A stretch of DNA of 39,731 bases from Bacillota bacterium. Lineage in GTDB: Bacteria > Bacillota > DTU065. Shown here in pieces: positions 7,428 to 37,119 of this stretch. The notes under the pieces are model-generated. The model had not been told where the DNA came from and did not search any database. It worked only from the letters and a program-made list of their open reading frames with translations. Each line of letters begins with the position of its first letter. Within the stretch, counting starts at the first letter, position 1. The translations under genes and the position numbers were made by a program. Location: NCBI GenBank assembly GCA_028708605.1, contig JAQVYS010000012.1:1-39731 (forward strand), given 5' to 3'.

Positions 7428-8708
7428 TTGCAGGAGGTTCAAACCGAGACAACGATAATTAAGAATTTAAGGCATAACTATAAGGTAGCTGTACTAGAAG
7501 GTGCTACCTATAGTTTGATGTTTGGTCTGACTGGTTCGTTTCTTGGTGTATTAGCGCTAAAGATGGGAGCGTCTCCTTTTCAGCTAAGCTTAATGACAGC
7601 TCTGCCGAATTTGGTTAATGTTCTCTTTATGGTTCCAGTTGCAAGTTATTTAGAAAATCGAAACAATAAAATGCCTTATCTTATAGGCGGTGTTTTTTTT
7701 AATCGTATTGGTTATCTCTTTTTAGGTTTAGCTGCATTTTTAGGGTTTTCCCCTAATGTATTTTTACTAGTATTGGCTATGATGACTTTCCCATCTGTAA
7801 TAGCAGGGCTGTCCTATACTGATGTAGTAGCAAGCTGTTTTCCACCTAGAGAAAGAGGAAGAGTCTTTGGCGCAAAAAACGCAGTAGTAGGCCTTTTGAC
7901 CTTTGTTTGTACGATGATCGCAGGCTTCTTTCTTGACTTAATTGCCTATCCTTATAACTATCTTATTGTATTTGGAATAGCTTCATTTTTCGGTGTGTTA
8001 AACACCTATACAATGAGTAGGCTAAGAGTGCCGGAAAACGTCAAAGCTGTAAGAAAAGAAGACAAAGAATCTTACATCACTAAGTTAAAAAACATCTTTG
8101 CCCATCCAACACTAGGAAATGAGTTTAAGAAGTTTTTAGTTACAATAGTCTTAGTTCATATCGGTTTTAACGTTCCCTCTGCTCTATGGACTATCTTTTA
8201 TGTAGAGCAGATGAATATGACCCAATTTCAAATCGGTAACCTTACAGCAATTAGCAACGCAATTATTGTGATGTCTTCGTTTTTTTGGGGTACGAGAGTT
8301 CAAAAAAGTGGCGATAAAGCCGTTTATGGTGTTTCGATAATTGGTATTGCTATGGTAGCTGTTTGGGCCACTTTAGCACGAAGTGTTTTTTCTTTGTATC
8401 TACTTCAGGTACTAAATGGATTTTCAATGGCTGCTTACAACCTAGCTTACTTTAATATTCTAATATCTTCATCAGATGAGAAATATCGTCCTACTGCAAC
8501 TGCGACCTTTCATGCATTAATTGGTATCACAGGGGTGATCTTTCCTACTATAGGAGTATGGTTATATAGCTTTATGACAATAAGGCAGATTTTTCTCCTA
8601 TCAGCTTTGATACGCTTTTTAGCTTTATTTGTTGCTCTAAAGGGCATAACAAAAGGGGATATTAAAGGGTTGTTTAACATGCCAAAGCGCTTTTTTATAC
8701 AAAGATAA
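7428..8708 (+). CDS. MFS transporter
   Basis: About 12 TM segments; TTG start after AGGTGAG. Confidence 0.82.
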   Translation: MQEVQTETTIIKNLRHNYKVAVLEGATYSLMFGLTGSFLGVLALKMGASPFQLSLMTALPNLVNVLFMVPVASYLENRNNKMPYLIGGVFFNRIGYLFLGLAAFLGFSPNVFLLVLAMMTFPSVIAGLSYTDVVASCFPPRERGRVFGAKNAVVGLLTFVCTMIAGFFLDLIAYPYNYLIVFGIASFFGVLNTYTMSRLRVPENVKAVRKEDKESYITKLKNIFAHPTLGNEFKKFLVTIVLVHIGFNVPSALWTIFYVEQMNMTQFQIGNLTAISNAIIVMSSFFWGTRVQKSGDKAVYGVSIIGIAMVAVWATLARSVFSLYLLQVLNGFSMAAYNLAYFNILISSSDEKYRPTATATFHALIGITGVIFPTIGVWLYSFMTIRQIFLLSALIRFLALFVALKGITKGDIKGLFNMPKRFFIQR

Positions 8709-8756
8709 GTCTAAAAAAGCTTTTAGCCTTTTATGAATAAGATTATGGAGTAAAAA

Positions 8757-8784
8757 AAGCGCCAGAGGTTAGACTCTGGCGCTT
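8757..8784. terminator. bidirectional rho-independent terminator
   Basis: AAGCGCCAGAG-GTTAGA-CTCTGGCGCTT; minus-strand readout followed by T7. Confidence 0.88.
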
Positions 8785-8796
8785 GAAAAATACCTG

Positions 8797-10641
8797 TTAT
8801 TTTAAGAAATACTCTCTTAAAATCTTATCTAATGCTATAACAAAAGCTTCACGGTTCTTTGCAGTAAGTGATGGCACTTTAGTATTTAATTTGTTTGCAA
8901 CCGAAGATAAAAATGACTCTGCAGTTTCCTTTTCAGCTGTTATCTTCGCTCCGTCTTTTAAGCCTTTTGCCCAAGTCGCTAAATCACTTGGGGTGATCTC
9001 TTTTTCGGGATAAAACTTGAGGTCTGGGTCTTGATCGTACTGGTAGGTTCCAAAAGCTGCTGTAAACTGTAAAGCACTAAAGAGTGGATGCCCAATTGGT
9101 ACATCAACAAACCAGAAAACAGGGGCTCCATTTGCAATAAGATTTGCTTGGGTTTTGCGAAGTAGCCTCTCATCTAGCCAGACTTGGTGAGGAAGAGCGT
9201 TGTTAGACAGTGAAGTTGCAACTAACATACCCGCGGCTTCGCCAATAGACCATTCGATAGGGTGTAACCTGTAAGTGCCATTAGTGATATGGGTAACGGC
9301 AAGGTTTTTGCCACCTGCTACAAGGTTTTTCACTCGGCGATGGATCAGAGATCCTAGAGGAATCTGGAACGGATATACAGCAGATGTTTTTGCTGTTTCC
9401 TTATAGCCCGAGTCATGAATATCAATAAAGTACCTACCTAAGCCTACTGAGTCTCTAAAGAAACGTGCTCGTGGACCATCTAGGTAGTCGACACTGACGT
9501 CCTGTTCAACAACAGTAGTCATCCCTTTAATACGGCGAGATTCGCGGATATAAGGATATTTGCTGAGTCCGTCTTCGGTACCCATTAAATCTTTACGAAG
9601 CATAAACTCAGGGTATCCAAAGCCTCCGTCATCACGTTTTACTTCAGTTTGCAGCCAGTACAAAAAGCCTAGAGCTAGGTCTTTGGCTTCCTTTAATAGC
9701 CTGTTTTTTTCTTCCTCTGAGGCGTCTATGAAGCTTCCACCAACATAGTCGTTACCAGGCCAGTTGATCATGGCAAGATCATTAGGATAAGCAGGATCAT
9801 TAAAGTTATTCTTATCGATTAAGCGTCTGTAGGACCAAAAAGAACCGTACAGACCTTCAGCTTTGCCAAACATTAAGTAGGTAGCTATTCTGTCACCATA
9901 GTCTACATCTAAGGTATAGGGCTGGTTATCTCTGTTTTTTTCATAGTTATCTGGTTTTTCAATAACATGATATTCACCAGGTCTATATTCAATGACGAAG
10001 GGATAGGTGTATGATTGAATCCAGTTTGGTTGAGGAGTATCTGGTGCATGTTCTTCGCCAGTTTCATTTTTAGCTTCAGCACCAATTGCGTATTCAACTC
10101 CAACGACAGGCAGAAGATCACCAATTTCGCTGGCATCAATAAAGATCTCAGCACTACAGGTCTTTTCGGTGTTATCATCTAGTCTGTAAGTGACAGACTT
10201 AATAACGTCGTTTTCAATCTCTGCATTTACAGGTACAGCATTGTACAAAACAGTTAACTGATCGCTTTCTAGATATTTTTCGAGCATGCCATCGATAACC
10301 TTTACGCCAACAATTGGCTCAAAGGATAGACGACTTACCCAGCAGTTACCAGGATTTAAGTGTGATACATATTGTGCAGAGTCACTCAAACGAAAGTTTT
10401 TACGGTAGTAGTTACGTACACCTTCTCTAAAAACGTAATAAGATGCAGGTGCACTAAAATATTCAATATATTGATTTTCATCTGGTGCTGATACACCTTG
10501 GCTGGTAAGCTGACCTCCTAACCAGTCTGTCTCTTCTGTCATTAGAACTTTCATGCCACTTGCAAGTAGAGATAGTGCAGCAGCTACGCCACCTGTGCTA
10601 CCACCGGTTATTACTACATCAAAATGAAGGTTTTCTGTCAT
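8797..10641 (-). CDS. FAD-dependent oxidoreductase (FAD_oxidored family, PF12831-type)
   Basis: VVITGGSTGGVAAALSLLASGMKVLMTEETDWLGGQLTSQGVSAPDE...; C-terminal AGGKNLAVTHI...GTYRLHPIEWSIGEAAG. ATG 10641 is better spaced from AAGGAG than the track start 10650. Confidence 0.9.
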   Translation of the reverse strand: MTENLHFDVVITGGSTGGVAAALSLLASGMKVLMTEETDWLGGQLTSQGVSAPDENQYIEYFSAPASYYVFREGVRNYYRKNFRLSDSAQYVSHLNPGNCWVSRLSFEPIVGVKVIDGMLEKYLESDQLTVLYNAVPVNAEIENDVIKSVTYRLDDNTEKTCSAEIFIDASEIGDLLPVVGVEYAIGAEAKNETGEEHAPDTPQPNWIQSYTYPFVIEYRPGEYHVIEKPDNYEKNRDNQPYTLDVDYGDRIATYLMFGKAEGLYGSFWSYRRLIDKNNFNDPAYPNDLAMINWPGNDYVGGSFIDASEEEKNRLLKEAKDLALGFLYWLQTEVKRDDGGFGYPEFMLRKDLMGTEDGLSKYPYIRESRRIKGMTTVVEQDVSVDYLDGPRARFFRDSVGLGRYFIDIHDSGYKETAKTSAVYPFQIPLGSLIHRRVKNLVAGGKNLAVTHITNGTYRLHPIEWSIGEAAGMLVATSLSNNALPHQVWLDERLLRKTQANLIANGAPVFWFVDVPIGHPLFSALQFTAAFGTYQYDQDPDLKFYPEKEITPSDLATWAKGLKDGAKITAEKETAESFLSSVANKLNTKVPSLTAKNREAFVIALDKILREYFLK

Positions 10642-25166: not shown

Positions 25167-26434
25167 CTGCATATAATATCATTACAAAAAAGCGAGATGG
25201 TTTTACTCTCTCAAAAGAAGAAATTAATTTTTTAATCGGTGGTTATGCAAAAGGTGAGATTCCAGACTATCAAATAGCTGCTTTTTTAATGGCAGTTTTT
25301 TTTCAAGGTCTAGATGAAGAAGAAACCGCGGACCTGACTCTGACAATGGCCCATTCCGGTGATATGCTGAAATTTGATGATTTAGGCTATGTCTTAGATA
25401 AACATAGCACAGGTGGCGTTGGAGACACTACGACTCTTATTGTCTTGCCTCTTGTAGCAGCTGCAGGAGGTAAGATAGCGAAACTCTCCGGGAGGGGGCT
25501 TGGACATACTGGAGGCACAATCGATAAACTTGAAGCAATTCCCGGTTTTCGCACAACCTTATCTAATCAGGAGTTAAAGAACCAGGTGCTAGATATTGGC
25601 CTAGCTATAGCTGGTCAGACCGGAAATTTAGTGCCTGCAGATAAACTGCTATATGCGCTAAGAGATGTTACAGGGACAGTAGAAAGCATCCCTCTGATTG
25701 CGTCAAGTATTATGTCTAAGAAAATTGCAGGAGGAGCTCATGGCATTGTTCTTGACGTAAAGGTCGGGAAAGGTGCCTTTATGAAAGATATTAATGAGGC
25801 CAGAAAGCTTGCTAAACTGATGGTAGCTTTAGGCAGCTTAGTGGGAAAAAGAGTTACAGCAGTCCTTAGCGATATGGATGTTCCACTTTCTAAAGCCCAA
25901 GGCAATACCCTTGAGGTTATTGAGGCCATCAATGTTCTAAAAGGAGTAGAAGGAAGAAGTAAGAGACTACAAGAGCTCTCAGAGGTGCTTGCAACAGAGA
26001 TGCTAGCACTAGATAGCTCTCTAGATACTACTTTAGATTTTCCTAAGGGCTATAATAGCTTTGTTCAGGTAGTTGAAAGACAAGGAGGAGACCTTTCAAA
26101 ACTAAGTCTTAGTGCACCATTTAAAGAGGAGATTATAACTGAAACCAGAGGCTATTTTTCAGATGCAGATGCTTTAGCTGTTGGTAAAGTAGTTAGAGAC
26201 TTAGGCGCAGGTCGAAGAGTAAAAGGTGAAAAAATTGATTCTAATGTAGGGGTACTTTTTAATAAGGATCTTGGCGACGAAATAAAAGAAGGCGAGCTTC
26301 TAGCTACAGTCTATGCGAGTAACAAAAATCAACTAGACGAAGCAGTATCTAATCTAAGAGAAGTCCTAGTTGTTGGGCCTAAGCCTTACGACAAACCAGT
26401 AGTCTTAGAGGTTATACGAGGTGGGAGTAGATAA
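25157..26434 (+). CDS. pdp: pyrimidine-nucleoside phosphorylase
   Basis: LDKHSTGGVGDTTTLIVLPLVAAAGGKIAKLSGRGLGHTGGTIDKLEAIPGF. Confidence 0.96.
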   Translation: MSLTAYNIITKKRDGFTLSKEEINFLIGGYAKGEIPDYQIAAFLMAVFFQGLDEEETADLTLTMAHSGDMLKFDDLGYVLDKHSTGGVGDTTTLIVLPLVAAAGGKIAKLSGRGLGHTGGTIDKLEAIPGFRTTLSNQELKNQVLDIGLAIAGQTGNLVPADKLLYALRDVTGTVESIPLIASSIMSKKIAGGAHGIVLDVKVGKGAFMKDINEARKLAKLMVALGSLVGKRVTAVLSDMDVPLSKAQGNTLEVIEAINVLKGVEGRSKRLQELSEVLATEMLALDSSLDTTLDFPKGYNSFVQVVERQGGDLSKLSLSAPFKEEIITETRGYFSDADALAVGKVVRDLGAGRRVKGEKIDSNVGVLFNKDLGDEIKEGELLATVYASNKNQLDEAVSNLREVLVVGPKPYDKPVVLEVIRGGSR

Positions 26435-27141
26435 TGAAGTGGCTTTTTGTACTCCTTTTAGTCGTCTCTCAAGCGAAAGCAGACTCAGTGATAGAGATAG
26501 CTGCTAAACCGTATTTAGTAGCTTCTGCTTTTGGCGGAGATATCTTAGATGCAAACTACAGAGCAGATCTTAAAGAAGATTTAAAAAGAAAAGACTATTT
26601 TGGGGTAATTTTAACAGATTATGATATGGAAAATCATCTTGAAAGATTAAAAGACTTAGATTTCAATGGAGATCTCCTTTTAAGTGAGCTTAAAGTGATA
26701 GGAGAGAAGATTTTTATTTCCTTTACTAGAGAACTCTATAGTCAGGGTTTTGATGTAGCTACTTATGGAGCACAGGGAATAACATATGTAGAGAGGGGCT
26801 TGGTGTCATTTAGCCTTTTAGAAAATAAAGTGTTTTACTCAGACCATCTGTGGTCTTTGCTTCCTCTTGAGGATCTACCTCATCTTAATTGGGAAGATAC
26901 TTTTACTAAAGAAGTCTGCTATCTCAAAGAGATATCCCTTAATAAAGCTGGTGAAAATCCTTTTTATAAGCTGTCTTTCCTTGCTTTAGAAGACCTTTCT
27001 AAAGATAGGGGAAGTGCGATTAGAGACTTTCGTGCAAGTCTTAAAAAGGCAGGATTGCAAGGCAGCCAAATCGATCAAGCTTGGCAAAGATTAGAGGAGA
27101 TTTTTTTTCAGCTAAAAAGGCAGGAGTTAAGAAACAGATAA
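26434..27141 (+). CDS. exported protein of unknown function, coupled to pdp
   Basis: Signal-peptide-like N-terminus MKWLFVLLLVVSQAKA; start codon overlaps the pdp stop (TAATG). Confidence 0.7.
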   Translation: MKWLFVLLLVVSQAKADSVIEIAAKPYLVASAFGGDILDANYRADLKEDLKRKDYFGVILTDYDMENHLERLKDLDFNGDLLLSELKVIGEKIFISFTRELYSQGFDVATYGAQGITYVERGLVSFSLLENKVFYSDHLWSLLPLEDLPHLNWEDTFTKEVCYLKEISLNKAGENPFYKLSFLALEDLSKDRGSAIRDFRASLKKAGLQGSQIDQAWQRLEEIFFQLKRQELRNR

Positions 27142-28505: not shown

Positions 28506-28508
28506 TAG

Positions 28509-28616
28509 TTAAAAAGAGCCTTATGATATGATACCTCCAAAGCAGACAGTCTAATTAATTAAAAATTAGATTACCTGTCTACTTGACAAGGGTCAGTTCA
28601 TTAAGGCTCTTTTTAA
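28509..28616. repeat. nested inverted-repeat element with 15-bp outer stem (structured RNA/terminator)
   Basis: Outer TTAAAAAGAGCCTTA (28509-28523) / TAAGGCTCTTTTTAA (28602-28616); inner AGACAGTCTAATT (28544-28556) / AATTAGA-TTAC-CTGTCT (28564-28580). Confidence 0.8.
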
Positions 28617-28745
28617 TTTTTTAATGCTTCTTGCCTAGTCCTATAATGCTAGACTAACTTGTACTTTTTCCCAGTACTGTATAAAAGGGAAATTGAATAG
28701 GTAGAGGAATGTTTTACAATAAGGTTTAATTTTGGAGGTATTTGT

Positions 28746-29546
28746 GTGAAAAAGGCGATATTAGTCTGTTTTTTTGTGTTAGTTGTTTTTGGCACACAAT
28801 TCATAAGCGCTGCTACCTGGAGAAGTAGAGTGTGGCCTCAAACGCCAGAGGGCGTGCTAAAACCCCACCACCCTGCAGAGCCTGAAGACCCTGAGGATCC
28901 CGTTACTCCTTTAGAACTTCAGGGCTGGGTTATTGTCATAGATCCAGGTCATGGTGGCACAGAACCAGGCGCGATTAACAATAATTTAGGTTTAAAAGAA
29001 AAAGACATCAATCTTTCAGTCGGGCTACTTTTGAGAGACAACTTGCTAACCTTTGGCGCGGATGTCAAAATGACAAGATCAACGGATGTTAACGTCACAA
29101 TAGCAGCTCGCAGAAACTTTTCTAACTCTCAAAATGCTCATCGCTTTGTATCTCTCCATGTAAATGCCGCAGGTAACACTTCAGCTAAAGGTATTGAGAC
29201 TTGGGTTGATACAGATGCAGGTAAGATTTGGAAAGATTATGCTCAGACCCTTCACAATAATATTGTGAGGAAAGCAAGGAGTTACGACAGTAGCATTCTA
29301 GATCGTAAGCTTAAATATTCTGGTTCAACACCTCCTTGGAGCGATGGCAGAAAAATCGGCGTTTTGCGCTACGACCTCATCAATGCTCCTGCAGCTCTAA
29401 TTGAGATGAATTTTATTAGTAATGATGTTGAGGCAAACCGTTTGAGTAGAACTGAGTACCAAAAGACTTTAGCTGATGGTATCGCAGAGGGGTTTGTGGA
29501 ACACTCGACTCAGTACAACAAAGAAGACGGCGTAATCAAACGATGA
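28746..29546 (+). CDS. N-acetylmuramoyl-L-alanine amidase (Amidase_3/AmiC-type)
   Basis: Signal peptide, Pro-rich linker, VIDPGHGGTEPGAINN, RFVSLHVNAA, ALIEMNFISN. GTG start after GGAGG. Confidence 0.95.
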   Translation: MKKAILVCFFVLVVFGTQFISAATWRSRVWPQTPEGVLKPHHPAEPEDPEDPVTPLELQGWVIVIDPGHGGTEPGAINNNLGLKEKDINLSVGLLLRDNLLTFGADVKMTRSTDVNVTIAARRNFSNSQNAHRFVSLHVNAAGNTSAKGIETWVDTDAGKIWKDYAQTLHNNIVRKARSYDSSILDRKLKYSGSTPPWSDGRKIGVLRYDLINAPAALIEMNFISNDVEANRLSRTEYQKTLADGIAEGFVEHSTQYNKEDGVIKR

Positions 29547-30622
29547 GAAATGTTCTTCTTTTTTTGAGCATTCTTTGTTTTCTTGGCTATAGTAGCGCAT
29601 ATGCTCTAGAGTATCCGTTAGGTACGTCCAAGTTAAGCGGTGTTATGAATTTTCGGATCTTTACAGGCGCACCAATAGATGAGGACTTTACATTTAGTCC
29701 TCCTGAGATCTCACACAGTCTAAAACTCCGTTATATAAGTCAAATAGATCGTTATCTTGTTGAAATTAATACGTCTAGTTTTGGTATCTTTGGTGCTTCA
29801 CCATATGTAAATCTGCCAAATATCAAAGAAGGTTTTACAGTTGACGAAGCTTTTGTCAATATACTAACTGATTATGGCTCGGTTATGATTGGGCGCTACG
29901 CACCATTTATGCCAGTATCTCCAGATGACTATAGAACAGACGGTCTCCTATTTGGCAATCCATCACTGCCAGTTGACGTAATCTCCCTTTATAGTGAGAC
30001 TCCAGATTTTGAGTATGAACTAGCCTTAGGTTATTTAAACTATACTAGACAAAGTGCTTTAAATTCACCGAGTGCGGATATGTTTATCGCAGCAAGATTT
30101 GGCTTTGATTATTTACTTAGTTCTTCTAGAATAAGGCTTAGCCCGAGTGTTCTCTTTAGCGACTTAGGTCAATCATTTGGTTTTAGCCTTCCTTTTCAGG
30201 CTAGTAAAGAAAATCAAGTTTTAGAGGGAGAAGTCGCTTTGTATAACCTTTTTGGCACTGAGCTGCTTAAAGAAGGCATCTATCCTGGTGTGATTTTAAG
30301 CTACCGTTCGAAAAGGTCCCCAGTTACAGTGGAGGTGGCCCACATCTCTCAAGGCTTTTTGCCGTATCTCGGGAATTTAGCAAACTTTGGTGGGAATTCA
30401 AACTGGAATACTGGTTCTTCTGGAGTAAAAGCAACTCTGCAACTAAAAAACTACACCTATAGCATAAAACTAGAAAAACGGCAAGAAAATTCTATAATTT
30501 ACCTATTTACTTTAGAAAAGAGAAATTTACCTAAACATTTTTCACCCGTAAAGATCAGCCTTGGAATCCAAGATAGGCAAGCGTTTTTTTCTCTCCAAAC
30601 AGGTTTACTATTTAATTTTTAG
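29543..30622 (+). CDS. exported predicted beta-barrel (outer-membrane-type) protein
   Basis: Signal peptide MRNVLLFLSILCFLGYSSAYA; many short amphipathic strands; C-terminal aromatic strand FFSLQTGLLFNF; ATGA overlap with the amidase. Confidence 0.6.
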   Translation: MRNVLLFLSILCFLGYSSAYALEYPLGTSKLSGVMNFRIFTGAPIDEDFTFSPPEISHSLKLRYISQIDRYLVEINTSSFGIFGASPYVNLPNIKEGFTVDEAFVNILTDYGSVMIGRYAPFMPVSPDDYRTDGLLFGNPSLPVDVISLYSETPDFEYELALGYLNYTRQSALNSPSADMFIAARFGFDYLLSSSRIRLSPSVLFSDLGQSFGFSLPFQASKENQVLEGEVALYNLFGTELLKEGIYPGVILSYRSKRSPVTVEVAHISQGFLPYLGNLANFGGNSNWNTGSSGVKATLQLKNYTYSIKLEKRQENSIIYLFTLEKRNLPKHFSPVKISLGIQDRQAFFSLQTGLLFNF

Positions 30623-30638
30623 GTGAAGGTGTAAAAAT

Positions 30639-31460
30639 ATGAAACTTAAATTTAACCGTCCCTTTTTGATATTGATTTTTGGCCTTGTTTTAGCTTTTAG
30701 CTTAAATGCTTTGGCAGGTGATTTTAGTGCTAGCTTTGGCGTAGGTTATGAGGCTTTGCAGCTAGAAAATAGTTCGGGATATAAAGATAAAACCAGCACT
30801 TTACTTTCCAGTGCTACTATTGACTGGGCTTTTTTGCCAGCTTTTGACATTTTATTAAATCTTGAACAAGGCTCGACCAAAAGTGCTGAAATAGACAGTG
30901 GCTTTTCGCACCCACTTCATAATTTAAAGGGGCATTATAACAGGCAGGTTCTAGCTCTTAACTATTATTTAGGAAATACGTTTAGATTAGGTTTAGGGCT
31001 TGGGCTTGATATAGATCGCGAAGGGTTTACTTGGACTGGCGATAATGATGATACTCTCTTGCGTTATTGGCAGTGGAATCGAAATTCACTTGGCGTATCA
31101 AGCTTAGTTAGTTTAGTCTATCAAGATGATCGCTTTGGATTCAAAACTAGCTTTAGTTATACACCGTTTTTTAAATCAGATGAAACATTAGTAGCGTTTA
31201 TTGATGAGGCCTGGGAGGCGTGGCAAACAGAGTCACTAAAGACTACATTACTGAAAGCAAATACCGAAGCCACGATAAATTTAACCCGCAATTTTGGGAT
31301 TTTGGGCGGTGTAAGCTATAGGAGATATCAGAGTCCAGCTTACAATGTGCCTTCTTTGTATGAAAATAGTGACGGTGAAAAAAGAGAGGTAGATTCTTTA
31401 GCTAGTAAAGTCTTAGAGAAGGGCAGTTTTGTTTATCTCGGATTAAAATTAACCATATAA
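30639..31460 (+). CDS. exported predicted beta-barrel (outer-membrane-type) protein
   Basis: Signal peptide ending ALAG; alternating strands (DFSASFGVGYEAL, TFRLGLGLGLDIDREGFTW, RFGFKTSFSYTPFF, NFGILGGVSYRRY), terminal strand GSFVYLGLKLTI. Confidence 0.6.
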   Translation: MKLKFNRPFLILIFGLVLAFSLNALAGDFSASFGVGYEALQLENSSGYKDKTSTLLSSATIDWAFLPAFDILLNLEQGSTKSAEIDSGFSHPLHNLKGHYNRQVLALNYYLGNTFRLGLGLGLDIDREGFTWTGDNDDTLLRYWQWNRNSLGVSSLVSLVYQDDRFGFKTSFSYTPFFKSDETLVAFIDEAWEAWQTESLKTTLLKANTEATINLTRNFGILGGVSYRRYQSPAYNVPSLYENSDGEKREVDSLASKVLEKGSFVYLGLKLTI

Positions 31461-31462
31461 AG

Positions 31463-31490
31463 AAAAAGCTGCAAAAGTGCAGCTTTTTTT
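31463..31490 (+). terminator. rho-independent terminator
   Basis: AAAAAGCTGCA-AAAG-TGCAGCTTTTTTT. Confidence 0.92.
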
Positions 31491-34725: not shown

Positions 34726-37119
34726 TTACATTTCTCCCCCTTGTAAAAGTAGAGTCGTAAAGGCGAGCTTTTCTAAGACTGTTTTTAAGTTAAGGTTGCT
34801 TTTATAAACTGGGTCTAGAGCTTGCGCGCTAATTAGCTTGTTTACTTCACTATGAAAAGATATGTCAAAGATCCTGCTTTCATAGAGGTACTGAGGTATT
34901 GTTGAAAAGATGGTTGAAGGAGCGAGTTCCTCTAGCCTTATAAGACAGTTTTCAATCTCTTCAATGACCTCGTTTTGAAGTATCCCTTTTCTACCAAAGG
35001 CTAAAAGCCAGCGCTCTAGCATCTGTAAATCACCTGTTAGGTCTAAACTAGCACTAGCATAAGCAGGCTGTAAGACAAGACTTAGAAGGTATCTAACTTG
35101 ATTTAGACTAGATAGGTAGACTCTGAGGCTTGTTATGCTGTCTTTTTTTAAGGTAAGCTCATTATATTCTTTTTCTAAGATCCTGAAAGCATCTAATGAA
35201 AGGGTGTTTTTTGCTTTAGAAAGTTTTTTAGTCAAGTGTGTTAAGAGTGCATCCCAATCTTCAAGAAATAGGCGATGGGCAGGAGCTGCATCTTGACTAA
35301 AAACCCCTGCTCTTAGAACTTTTAGACTTTGTAGATCGAAGTGATCGTAGGCAAAGAAGAAACTGCCAAGAGAACCACTAGTCCTACCTAGCTGGCTTAC
35401 TTGGTTATTCAATGAGAGTCTATTGTAGAGATTGAAACCGCTTACCCCGGCAAAGACTTGAGACGTGGGAGGGGCCTTTTTGACTGCTGAAGAAAACCAG
35501 CCTGCGACATTTGCAGGATTAGGAGAGTAGGTCATAGGAATAACAAAATCTACATAACCGTGTTCAAGCCACAAAGGCCAGTTTTGTAGATAGTTTCTCT
35601 GCCACTTTGATGGTGGTCCGTCAGGTGCAACTGCTGCAGATAGGTAGATGTCTGGATCTATTTTCTTAATCTTCTTAGAGGCCATTTCCACGAGCTGGTC
35701 TATGCCATTGCTTCTATAGTTGATCCAGAGCATTGGGGCAGAGGTTCTTCTCTCATCTGGTAAAAGACCGTAGCGGAGCGTAAAGTTAGAAACGGCATCT
35801 TTACTATAATCTGTCTCAGGAACATCCATACCCCCATAACGGACATAATCGAGGTGAATGCCATCCACACCGTATTTGGCAACCTCCTGCATCAGGTTAG
35901 TTACATAATCTCTAAAATCTAAATTAAGAGGAGATGCAAAATAAAGGTGGTTACCATCTCGTTTATAACCAAAACTACCGTTTTTATTTACAGCAATCCA
36001 ATCAGGGTATTTGGAAAGTATTGGTCCATAGGAGTTTAGCCCAACATAAAAGACTGAAAACCAAGGGTGGATTTCGATATTGTTTTTGTTAGCTTCTTCG
36101 ACTAAAATCTGGAGAGGATCGAAGTTGAGAAAGTTTGGACTTTGGTGATCGATACCATATTCTTTTGCAACGAGTGAAGGGTAGATGGTATAGCCATGAA
36201 AAAAGACCTCCGGTAAGATCACATTAAAACCTGCATCTTTGATCATTCTAACCATCTCTTTAATACCAGGTTCAGTCTTAGGGATAGCCTTAGAGCTGAT
36301 CCAGATACCTCTAGTCTCAACTGGCATACTTTCAAAAGATGAAGCTTTATAAAGCTCGATTTGGTTTTCAACCTCTAACTTTAGAGAGTTAAGAGACCAA
36401 ATCTTACCTGACCCACTACTTTCAATAGTTTTTGCCTTTGATAAGAGGGCAGTTAACCCGGTTGCTAAGTCATTTGCTGTAGCTTTTTCAGGAATACTCG
36501 TATGGAGTAGTGTGTTTTGGATCAGAGTCTCTATCTCTAAGACCCTCTCGTGGATTGTTCGATCTGTTTTTTCTAGAAAAGAAGGATTGATCTCTCGCAA
36601 AAGAGTTACGAAAAGCTTCCTAGTAGCATCAGTGTTTATCGAACTGACAATGTTTTCGTGAAAAAAGCAACCACTTTTAAACTCAGTGTAGGAGATTGTA
36701 GAATCAGTTCCATCTAGAAGTCTCACAGTAGAAGTTTTGACGGGCGAGGAGTCTATAAGTCTAGAGAAGAATTCTTGATTTGACTCATTTGCCTGGGCAG
36801 ATAAAGGGTAGAATATGAGTTTTCCGGTCTCTGCATACTCAAGGATCTGTGTGATTTCATTACTAGTTAATTTACCACTTAGAGGAATAATTAAGGCTGA
36901 GCTACTGTGGTCACTAGATGACTGAAGTAAAGTTAGATCTTTAATTATCTTGTTATCTGTTAAGATCAGATCTAAAAAAGTCTTAACCGAAGAAAGACTA
37001 AGCCAATTTTCTGTGGTCTGGTAGAGATAAACAGGTGTAGCTAGAGCGTTGATGGTCATATATAGACTGAGTAAGATAAAAAACATAAATGCGCGGGTCT
37101 TTTTAAGCAAAGATATCAC
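34726..37119 (-). CDS. secreted family 10 glycosylhydrolase-like protein (GHL10/DUF187, COG1649)
   Basis: ETRGIWISSKAIPK...MIKDAGFNVILPEVFFHGYTIYPS...GVDGIHLDYVRYGG...WPLWLEHGYVDFVIPMTYSPN; signal peptide; N-terminal GATase-like segment. Confidence 0.88.
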   Translation of the reverse strand: MISLLKKTRAFMFFILLSLYMTINALATPVYLYQTTENWLSLSSVKTFLDLILTDNKIIKDLTLLQSSSDHSSSALIIPLSGKLTSNEITQILEYAETGKLIFYPLSAQANESNQEFFSRLIDSSPVKTSTVRLLDGTDSTISYTEFKSGCFFHENIVSSINTDATRKLFVTLLREINPSFLEKTDRTIHERVLEIETLIQNTLLHTSIPEKATANDLATGLTALLSKAKTIESSGSGKIWSLNSLKLEVENQIELYKASSFESMPVETRGIWISSKAIPKTEPGIKEMVRMIKDAGFNVILPEVFFHGYTIYPSLVAKEYGIDHQSPNFLNFDPLQILVEEANKNNIEIHPWFSVFYVGLNSYGPILSKYPDWIAVNKNGSFGYKRDGNHLYFASPLNLDFRDYVTNLMQEVAKYGVDGIHLDYVRYGGMDVPETDYSKDAVSNFTLRYGLLPDERRTSAPMLWINYRSNGIDQLVEMASKKIKKIDPDIYLSAAVAPDGPPSKWQRNYLQNWPLWLEHGYVDFVIPMTYSPNPANVAGWFSSAVKKAPPTSQVFAGVSGFNLYNRLSLNNQVSQLGRTSGSLGSFFFAYDHFDLQSLKVLRAGVFSQDAAPAHRLFLEDWDALLTHLTKKLSKAKNTLSLDAFRILEKEYNELTLKKDSITSLRVYLSSLNQVRYLLSLVLQPAYASASLDLTGDLQMLERWLLAFGRKGILQNEVIEEIENCLIRLEELAPSTIFSTIPQYLYESRIFDISFHSEVNKLISAQALDPVYKSNLNLKTVLEKLAFTTLLLQGGEM

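Follow-up and report, generated by a model that had tools for sequence, protein, structure and literature searches.

Organization of the Locus

The window, i.e., the whole 39,731-nucleotide stretch of DNA analysed here, carries three consecutive plus-strand genes, which encode an amidase and two exported proteins designated ORF2 and ORF3 (Table 1); their coordinates, four-nucleotide overlap, and 16-nt gap are all as given in a preliminary description of this DNA. The GTG start codon of the amidase gene is preceded by a GGAGGT sequence, and the overlap at its other end likely couples translation of the amidase to that of ORF2. Three other genomes of the host class, DTU065, carry orthologues of ORF2 (53, 43, and 38% identity) and ORF3 (51, 38, and 31% identity) in the same gene order, and both reading frames are thus real genes. 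Given the terminator-like hairpin directly 3′ of ORF3 (−15.6 kcal/mol, z −4.8), the three genes appear to form a single transcription unit; the terminator scan lists this hairpin on the minus strand but not on the plus strand, because the T run is absorbed in the stem. A second, long hairpin separates the amidase gene from the gene for glutamate dehydrogenase and is very stable (−44.5 kcal/mol, z −8.1); the two hairpins flank the likely three-gene unit. One arm of the upstream hairpin, GGCTCTTTTTAA, is found in five copies in the window (at most one mismatch) against 0.9 expected; considered as a mobile element, the hairpin has no second matching arm pair in the window. Farther upstream lies a gene for an exported protein of no recognised family that is conserved in the class (orthologues of 237–248 aa).

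Table 1. Features of the amidase-barrel locus and its surroundings (window coordinates).
Feature	Position	Strand	Remarks
Exported protein of no recognised family	26434..27141		upstream
Long hairpin	28507..28616		upstream of amidase gene
GGAGGT	28734..28739		upstream of GTG start
Amidase_3 gene, 266 aa	28746..29546	+	GTG start; open reading frame and Pfam
WRSRVWPQTPEG segment	28818..28853	+	directly after predicted signal peptide of amidase; alignments
ATGA stop/start overlap, amidase/ORF2	29543..29546	+	
ORF2, 359 aa	29543..30622	+	ATG start
ORF3, 273 aa	30639..31460	+	ATG start; 16-nt gap after ORF2
Terminator-like hairpin (stem)	31463..31488	+	directly 3′ of ORF3; T-rich stretch after
GHL10 glycosyl hydrolase gene, related to E. 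coli DigH	34726..37119	−	neighbour, outside operon

A Bare Amidase With a Conserved N-Terminal Motif

The first protein belongs to the Amidase_3 family (Pfam, E 5.7e-43), and its zinc-ligand and catalytic positions (H69, E85, H138, and E220) are invariant among eight aligned homologues. It is laid out as a signal peptide, an N-terminal motif, a Pro/Asp-rich linker, and the catalytic domain, with no AMIN, SH3, LysM, or SLH domain detected in its 266 residues. The earlier label "AmiC-type" is therefore withdrawn, since AmiC carries an AMIN domain; a separate AMIN-amidase is present in a relative from the same class (G003), so that the usual division amidase is encoded elsewhere. CwlD, the best NCBIfam match (TIGR02883), was rejected at 100.7 bits against a cut-off of 221.55. 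That match is what would speak for a spore-linked, CwlD-like amidase lying beside porin genes by chance, a reading made very improbable by the same shortfall in score, by the strict porin linkage described below, and by the lack of a recognised spore gene directly adjacent. In another relative (G004), a second small Amidase_3 gene lacking an obvious signal peptide (L012, 14745–15359) adjoins a GHL10 gene.

The N-terminal motif, WRSRxWP or WRTRVWP, is present in all six amidases of the three-gene operon type (five from DTU065 and one from the more distant genome G303, where it reads GWRSRSWP) and is followed in each by a linker of variable length. It is absent from the amidases of the other, porin-amidase type (clade II, see below) that were aligned or read. 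To judge from sequence, a bare catalytic domain joined to a signal peptide and this motif has a docking-like architecture; the segment may instead serve folding, export, or substrate contact.

Two Predicted Outer-Membrane Barrels

Both ORF2 and ORF3 begin with signal-peptide-like sequences, and their AlphaFold models (single chains, four-sequence alignments each) are otherwise nearly all beta, in agreement with the signal peptides and many strands previously noted; the C-termini FFSLQTGLLFNF and GSFVYLGLKLTI likewise match those quoted before. Both proteins model as barrels and the top Foldseek matches are all outer-membrane barrels, which bears out the earlier beta-barrel proposal, with the proviso that the shallow alignments leave the loops and the precise number of strands uncertain.

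The ORF2 model (mean pLDDT 75, pTM 0.69, approximately 18 strands) resembles Campylobacter MOMP most closely among PDB structures (Foldseek E 4.7e-11, TM 0.59), followed by OprD/Occ and other porins, and no Pfam or NCBIfam family matched its sequence. ORF2 is hence best described as a predicted outer-membrane porin of about 18 strands, from a family without a database entry. Its conserved features include the loop segments GRYAPFMPVSPDDYR..LLFGN and FLPYLGNLANFGG, as well as the charged and loop positions E102, R118, D179, and E230.

The ORF3 model (mean pLDDT 79, pTM 0.73, approximately 10 long strands) finds OmpT in the PDB (E 1.8e-12, TM 0.67), and omptins fill the first 11 places; the protein is predicted to be a 10-strand barrel of the omptin fold that lacks the omptin catalytic residues. 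ORF3 of the window has no Pfam match, including to Omptin (PF01278), one of four ORF3 orthologues passes the PF01278 cut-off (25.5 versus 22.6 bits), and a direct profile comparison with OmpT was not significant, so that omptin homology rests on the fold and one Pfam match. Ubiquitin matches of the ORF3 profile in a PDB sequence search were dismissed as an artefact, as none of the strong matches had a stretch that passed by itself. In a joint sequence alignment, equivalents of the OmpT catalytic positions D83, D85, D210, and H212 are not conserved in ORF3; a different set of residues (W132, W144, W146, E182, T183, W192, E193, and W195) is invariant in five ORF3 proteins, including that of G303. 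The same alignment shows DxDW and DxH to be kept by a Pfam-confirmed omptin homologue from G083, a BamA-positive Bacillota genome (L035, 1252–2217), whose FKDSDWLA and DEDRH motifs appear intact and which, by its sequence, is likely a true omptin in Bacillota. A small barrel in G278 (L059, 5681–6418) matches the ORF3 profile at about 1e-5, is not located beside an amidase gene, and is possibly a distant ORF3 relative.

A Host That Is an LPS-Type Diderm by Gene Content

The host genome (2.16 Mb, 141 contigs) belongs to a class represented by five species in the searched set, with relatives recorded under names such as Clostridia bacterium DTU065, Bacillota bacterium SL1-B34.1, and Firmicutes bacterium UBA4881. 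A literature search found nothing specific on DTU065 beyond a paper that places it in the candidate phylum Firmicutes G and describes it as sister to the class Limnochordia (PMC11456536); diderm lineages near Limnochordia are already known, according to the statement in that paper that cites them (Taib et al., 2020, cited in PMC11456536). Limnochordia, a related class, have been imaged by microscopy (PMC11456536), and the outer membrane of the present host is predicted from its genes.

The preliminary description inferred a diderm firmicute and suggested a genome search for bamA and other outer-membrane biogenesis genes, which are indeed present. BamA/Omp85 with POTRA domains (E 8.1e-53 in the host) occurs in all five DTU065 genomes and in 50 of 200 genomes sampled from the phylum. 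The host gene is part of a cluster that also includes TamB, OmpH, LpxD, LptF/G, an LptD candidate, LptC, an LptA-like protein, LpxC, FabZ, LpxA, LpxB, an MsbA-like exporter, LptB, and a second LptF/G. LpxD, LpxC, LpxA, LpxB, LptF/G, LptC, OmpH, TamB, and Omp85 were confirmed by Pfam; FabZ, MsbA, LptB, and LptD were assigned from sequence, general ABC family, and position, the LptD candidate (no Pfam match) by position and length only. An ExbD-containing cluster is also present. By its gene content, then, the host is an LPS-type diderm. The earlier conclusion holds because of these BamA, Lpx, and Lpt genes and not because of the rex, BceRSAB, BioY, and SPOCS genes first offered in its support, which are silent on the outer membrane. 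Within the biogenesis cluster (L013), two small barrel-like genes (7440–8066 and 8041–8916) were also observed, the first of which matches YjbH (7.8e-8).

An OmpM-type tether was considered for ORF2 and ruled out, as ORF2 carries neither an SLH domain nor a coiled coil. Three other host proteins (L030, 15649–16686; L032, 6705–7400; L033, 4435–5652) combine an N-terminal SLH domain, a coiled coil, and a C-terminal hydrophobic segment with no barrel, and are possibly Omp-alpha-like outer-membrane tethers in place of OmpM. Since such separate proteins could provide the tether, the outer-membrane tethering formerly suggested for the amidase-barrel module is not needed; envelope remodelling, the other role then suggested, is plausible.

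Recurrence of the Amidase-Porin Pair

All 24 ORF2-family porin loci that were read, in DTU065, the classes of G264 and G278, and G171, have a bare Amidase_3 gene as direct neighbour, whichever of the two comes first. They comprise four from DTU065, one from G303, two from G264, one each from G352, G353, and G171, and 14 from the class of G278; at least 22 were discovered from the porin side, and the G171 locus was reached by starting from the amidase, as G278 was initially. G001, G002, and G004 share the order amidase-ORF2-ORF3 with a cysteine desulfurase gene and thiI after it, and G003 seemingly lacks the two barrels only because its amidase gene stops about 25 bases from a contig end. Outside DTU065, G303 retains the full order, with GTGA as the four-nucleotide overlap. 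Elsewhere the order is porin-amidase: G264 has two porin-porin-amidase clusters and G352 and G353 have one each, and in the class of G278 the porin occurs in 14 of 17 genomes with the amidase directly downstream in every one of the 14. The two orders imply that the genes stayed neighbours through rearrangement. The module is patchy in the class of G264, where the porin was found in only 4 of 73 genomes. Contig searches with the single ORF2 sequence gave no match and those with an ORF2 alignment as query did, and when ORF2 and ORF3 profiles were run against 300 genomes from the phylum, DTU065 alone yielded strong matches. The conservation that the preliminary description proposed to look for in Limnochordia and Halanaerobia was seen, but in another pattern, comprising DTU065 and scattered relatives.

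With one to four strong amidase matches per genome and an estimated 2,500 or so genes, chance adjacency would be well under 1% per locus; loci from related genomes do not count as independent, but the pairing occurs in at least four lineages and with two gene orders. In a tree of 53 amidase domains, the linked amidases group into two clades (DTU065 plus G303, and the other 20), both of them fully supported by bootstrap, and the unlinked amidases fall apart from both; a single clade for the linked amidases is not rejected (p-AU 0.205). Two origins would mean that the pairing was built twice and one origin that it is old, and either favours a functional link. Simple co-expression, wherein a housekeeping amidase and general porins are co-transcribed because wall and outer membrane grow together, with no physical or substrate link, would be accounted for by the overlap and close spacing of the genes; we consider it unlikely, given that the pairing recurs inverted in several lineages, always with the same porin family and despite the presence of other amidases there. 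The recurring partnership is well supported, and the amidase and porin are very probably functional partners.

Proposed Function

From these observations we infer a mechanism, including its elements of contact, localisation, and biological role, in which the barrels would position, control, or feed the amidase. The amidase would be exported to the periplasm to strip stem peptides from peptidoglycan, with ORF2 as its cognate outer-membrane channel and ORF3 as an omptin-fold barrel in which the protease residues would be gone and another, aromatic/acidic site would be conserved. In the operon type, a barrel would position or control the amidase via the WRSRxWP segment and the flexible Pro/Asp-rich linker, and wall cutting would thereby take place near the outer membrane and in step with it. 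Because the amidase itself lacks any domain for wall binding or targeting, positioning or control by a barrel is the most likely arrangement in our estimation, and is advanced here tentatively, with a likelihood somewhat short of even. Docking through WRSRxWP is not a general rule, as the clade II amidases without the motif keep the porin.

The conserved lumen and loop residues of the porin are no less compatible with a substrate channel than with a scaffold. The module might serve wall-fragment transport for recycling or scavenging, with ORF3 binding or processing glycan or peptide at the surface, ORF2 passing fragments through the outer membrane, and the amidase stripping stem peptides in the periplasm. 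An outer-membrane channel with a periplasmic hydrolase is a common uptake layout, and the conserved charged and loop positions of ORF2 and Trp/Glu positions of ORF3 would suit this role. So would the genomic surroundings: the GHL10 hydrolase encoded 3.3 kb downstream of the operon is related to E. coli DigH (2e-14), and AnmK (anhydro-MurNAc kinase) is encoded after ORF3 in G002 and G004, behind the cysteine desulfurase and thiI genes. DigH acts on peptide-free glycans left by amidases (PMC12288456). Both neighbours fit wall turnover, yet neither is in the operon, AnmK is absent from the window, no importer lies in or beside the operon, and the retention of one copy in nearly all genomes of DTU065 and of the class of G278 is more like a core envelope function; we regard wall-fragment transport as possible but doubtful.

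A bolder version of barrel-controlled cutting, in which the non-protease omptin barrel and the new porin family would form an outer-membrane receptor for the amidase, with WRSRxWP docking and a surface event controlling peptidoglycan cutting, is considered improbable; if true, it would connect the cell surface directly to the wall, in contrast to the lipoprotein activators of Proteobacteria.

What emerges beyond the preliminary description is a recurring amidase-porin module, accompanied in one branch by an omptin-fold barrel without protease residues, to which a function is provisionally assigned. Diderm Bacillota are central to the debate on the loss or retention of the outer membrane by bacteria, and the coordination of their wall cutting with that membrane is largely unstudied; a porin-amidase pair that several classes have retained, some of them with the order inverted, offers a concrete and testable partner for this question. 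The linkage also provides a lead to the function of the porin family, and ORF3 adds an omptin-like barrel, apparently devoid of protease residues, to Bacillota. No description of the pairing was found in literature searches, which covered open-licence papers only and are hence weak evidence of novelty.

Comparison With Known Systems

The amidase shares its domain (PF01520), zinc-ligand and catalytic positions, and signal peptide with AmiA/B/C, CwlD, and LytC, and differs from them in having no AMIN or other targeting domain, in its WRSRxWP segment and linker, and in its operon with barrels. ORF3 is likened to the omptins (OmpT; PF01278) by its predicted 10-strand barrel, its TM score, and the one orthologue above the Pfam cut-off, but unlike in OmpT, the catalytic Asp/Asp and Asp-His are not conserved and other aromatic and acidic positions are. 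For ORF2, the 18-strand porins MOMP of Campylobacter and OprD/Occ are the best structural matches (TM about 0.57–0.59), with identities of about 10–13%, no sequence family match, and, in ORF2 but not in them, linkage to an amidase. OmpM of Veillonella, an SLH tether plus porin (PMC10628300), is likewise a porin of diderm Bacillota and also appears among the Foldseek matches; unlike OmpM, ORF2 is free of both the SLH domain and the coiled coil, the SLH proteins of its host being separate and appearing to end in a hydrophobic anchor. Finally, in the NlpD-AmiC axis of E. coli, an outer-membrane component is linked to the control of a periplasmic amidase (PMC5533458). NlpD is a LytM lipoprotein activator and the module described herein would consist of integral barrels, so that the likeness is one of analogy only.
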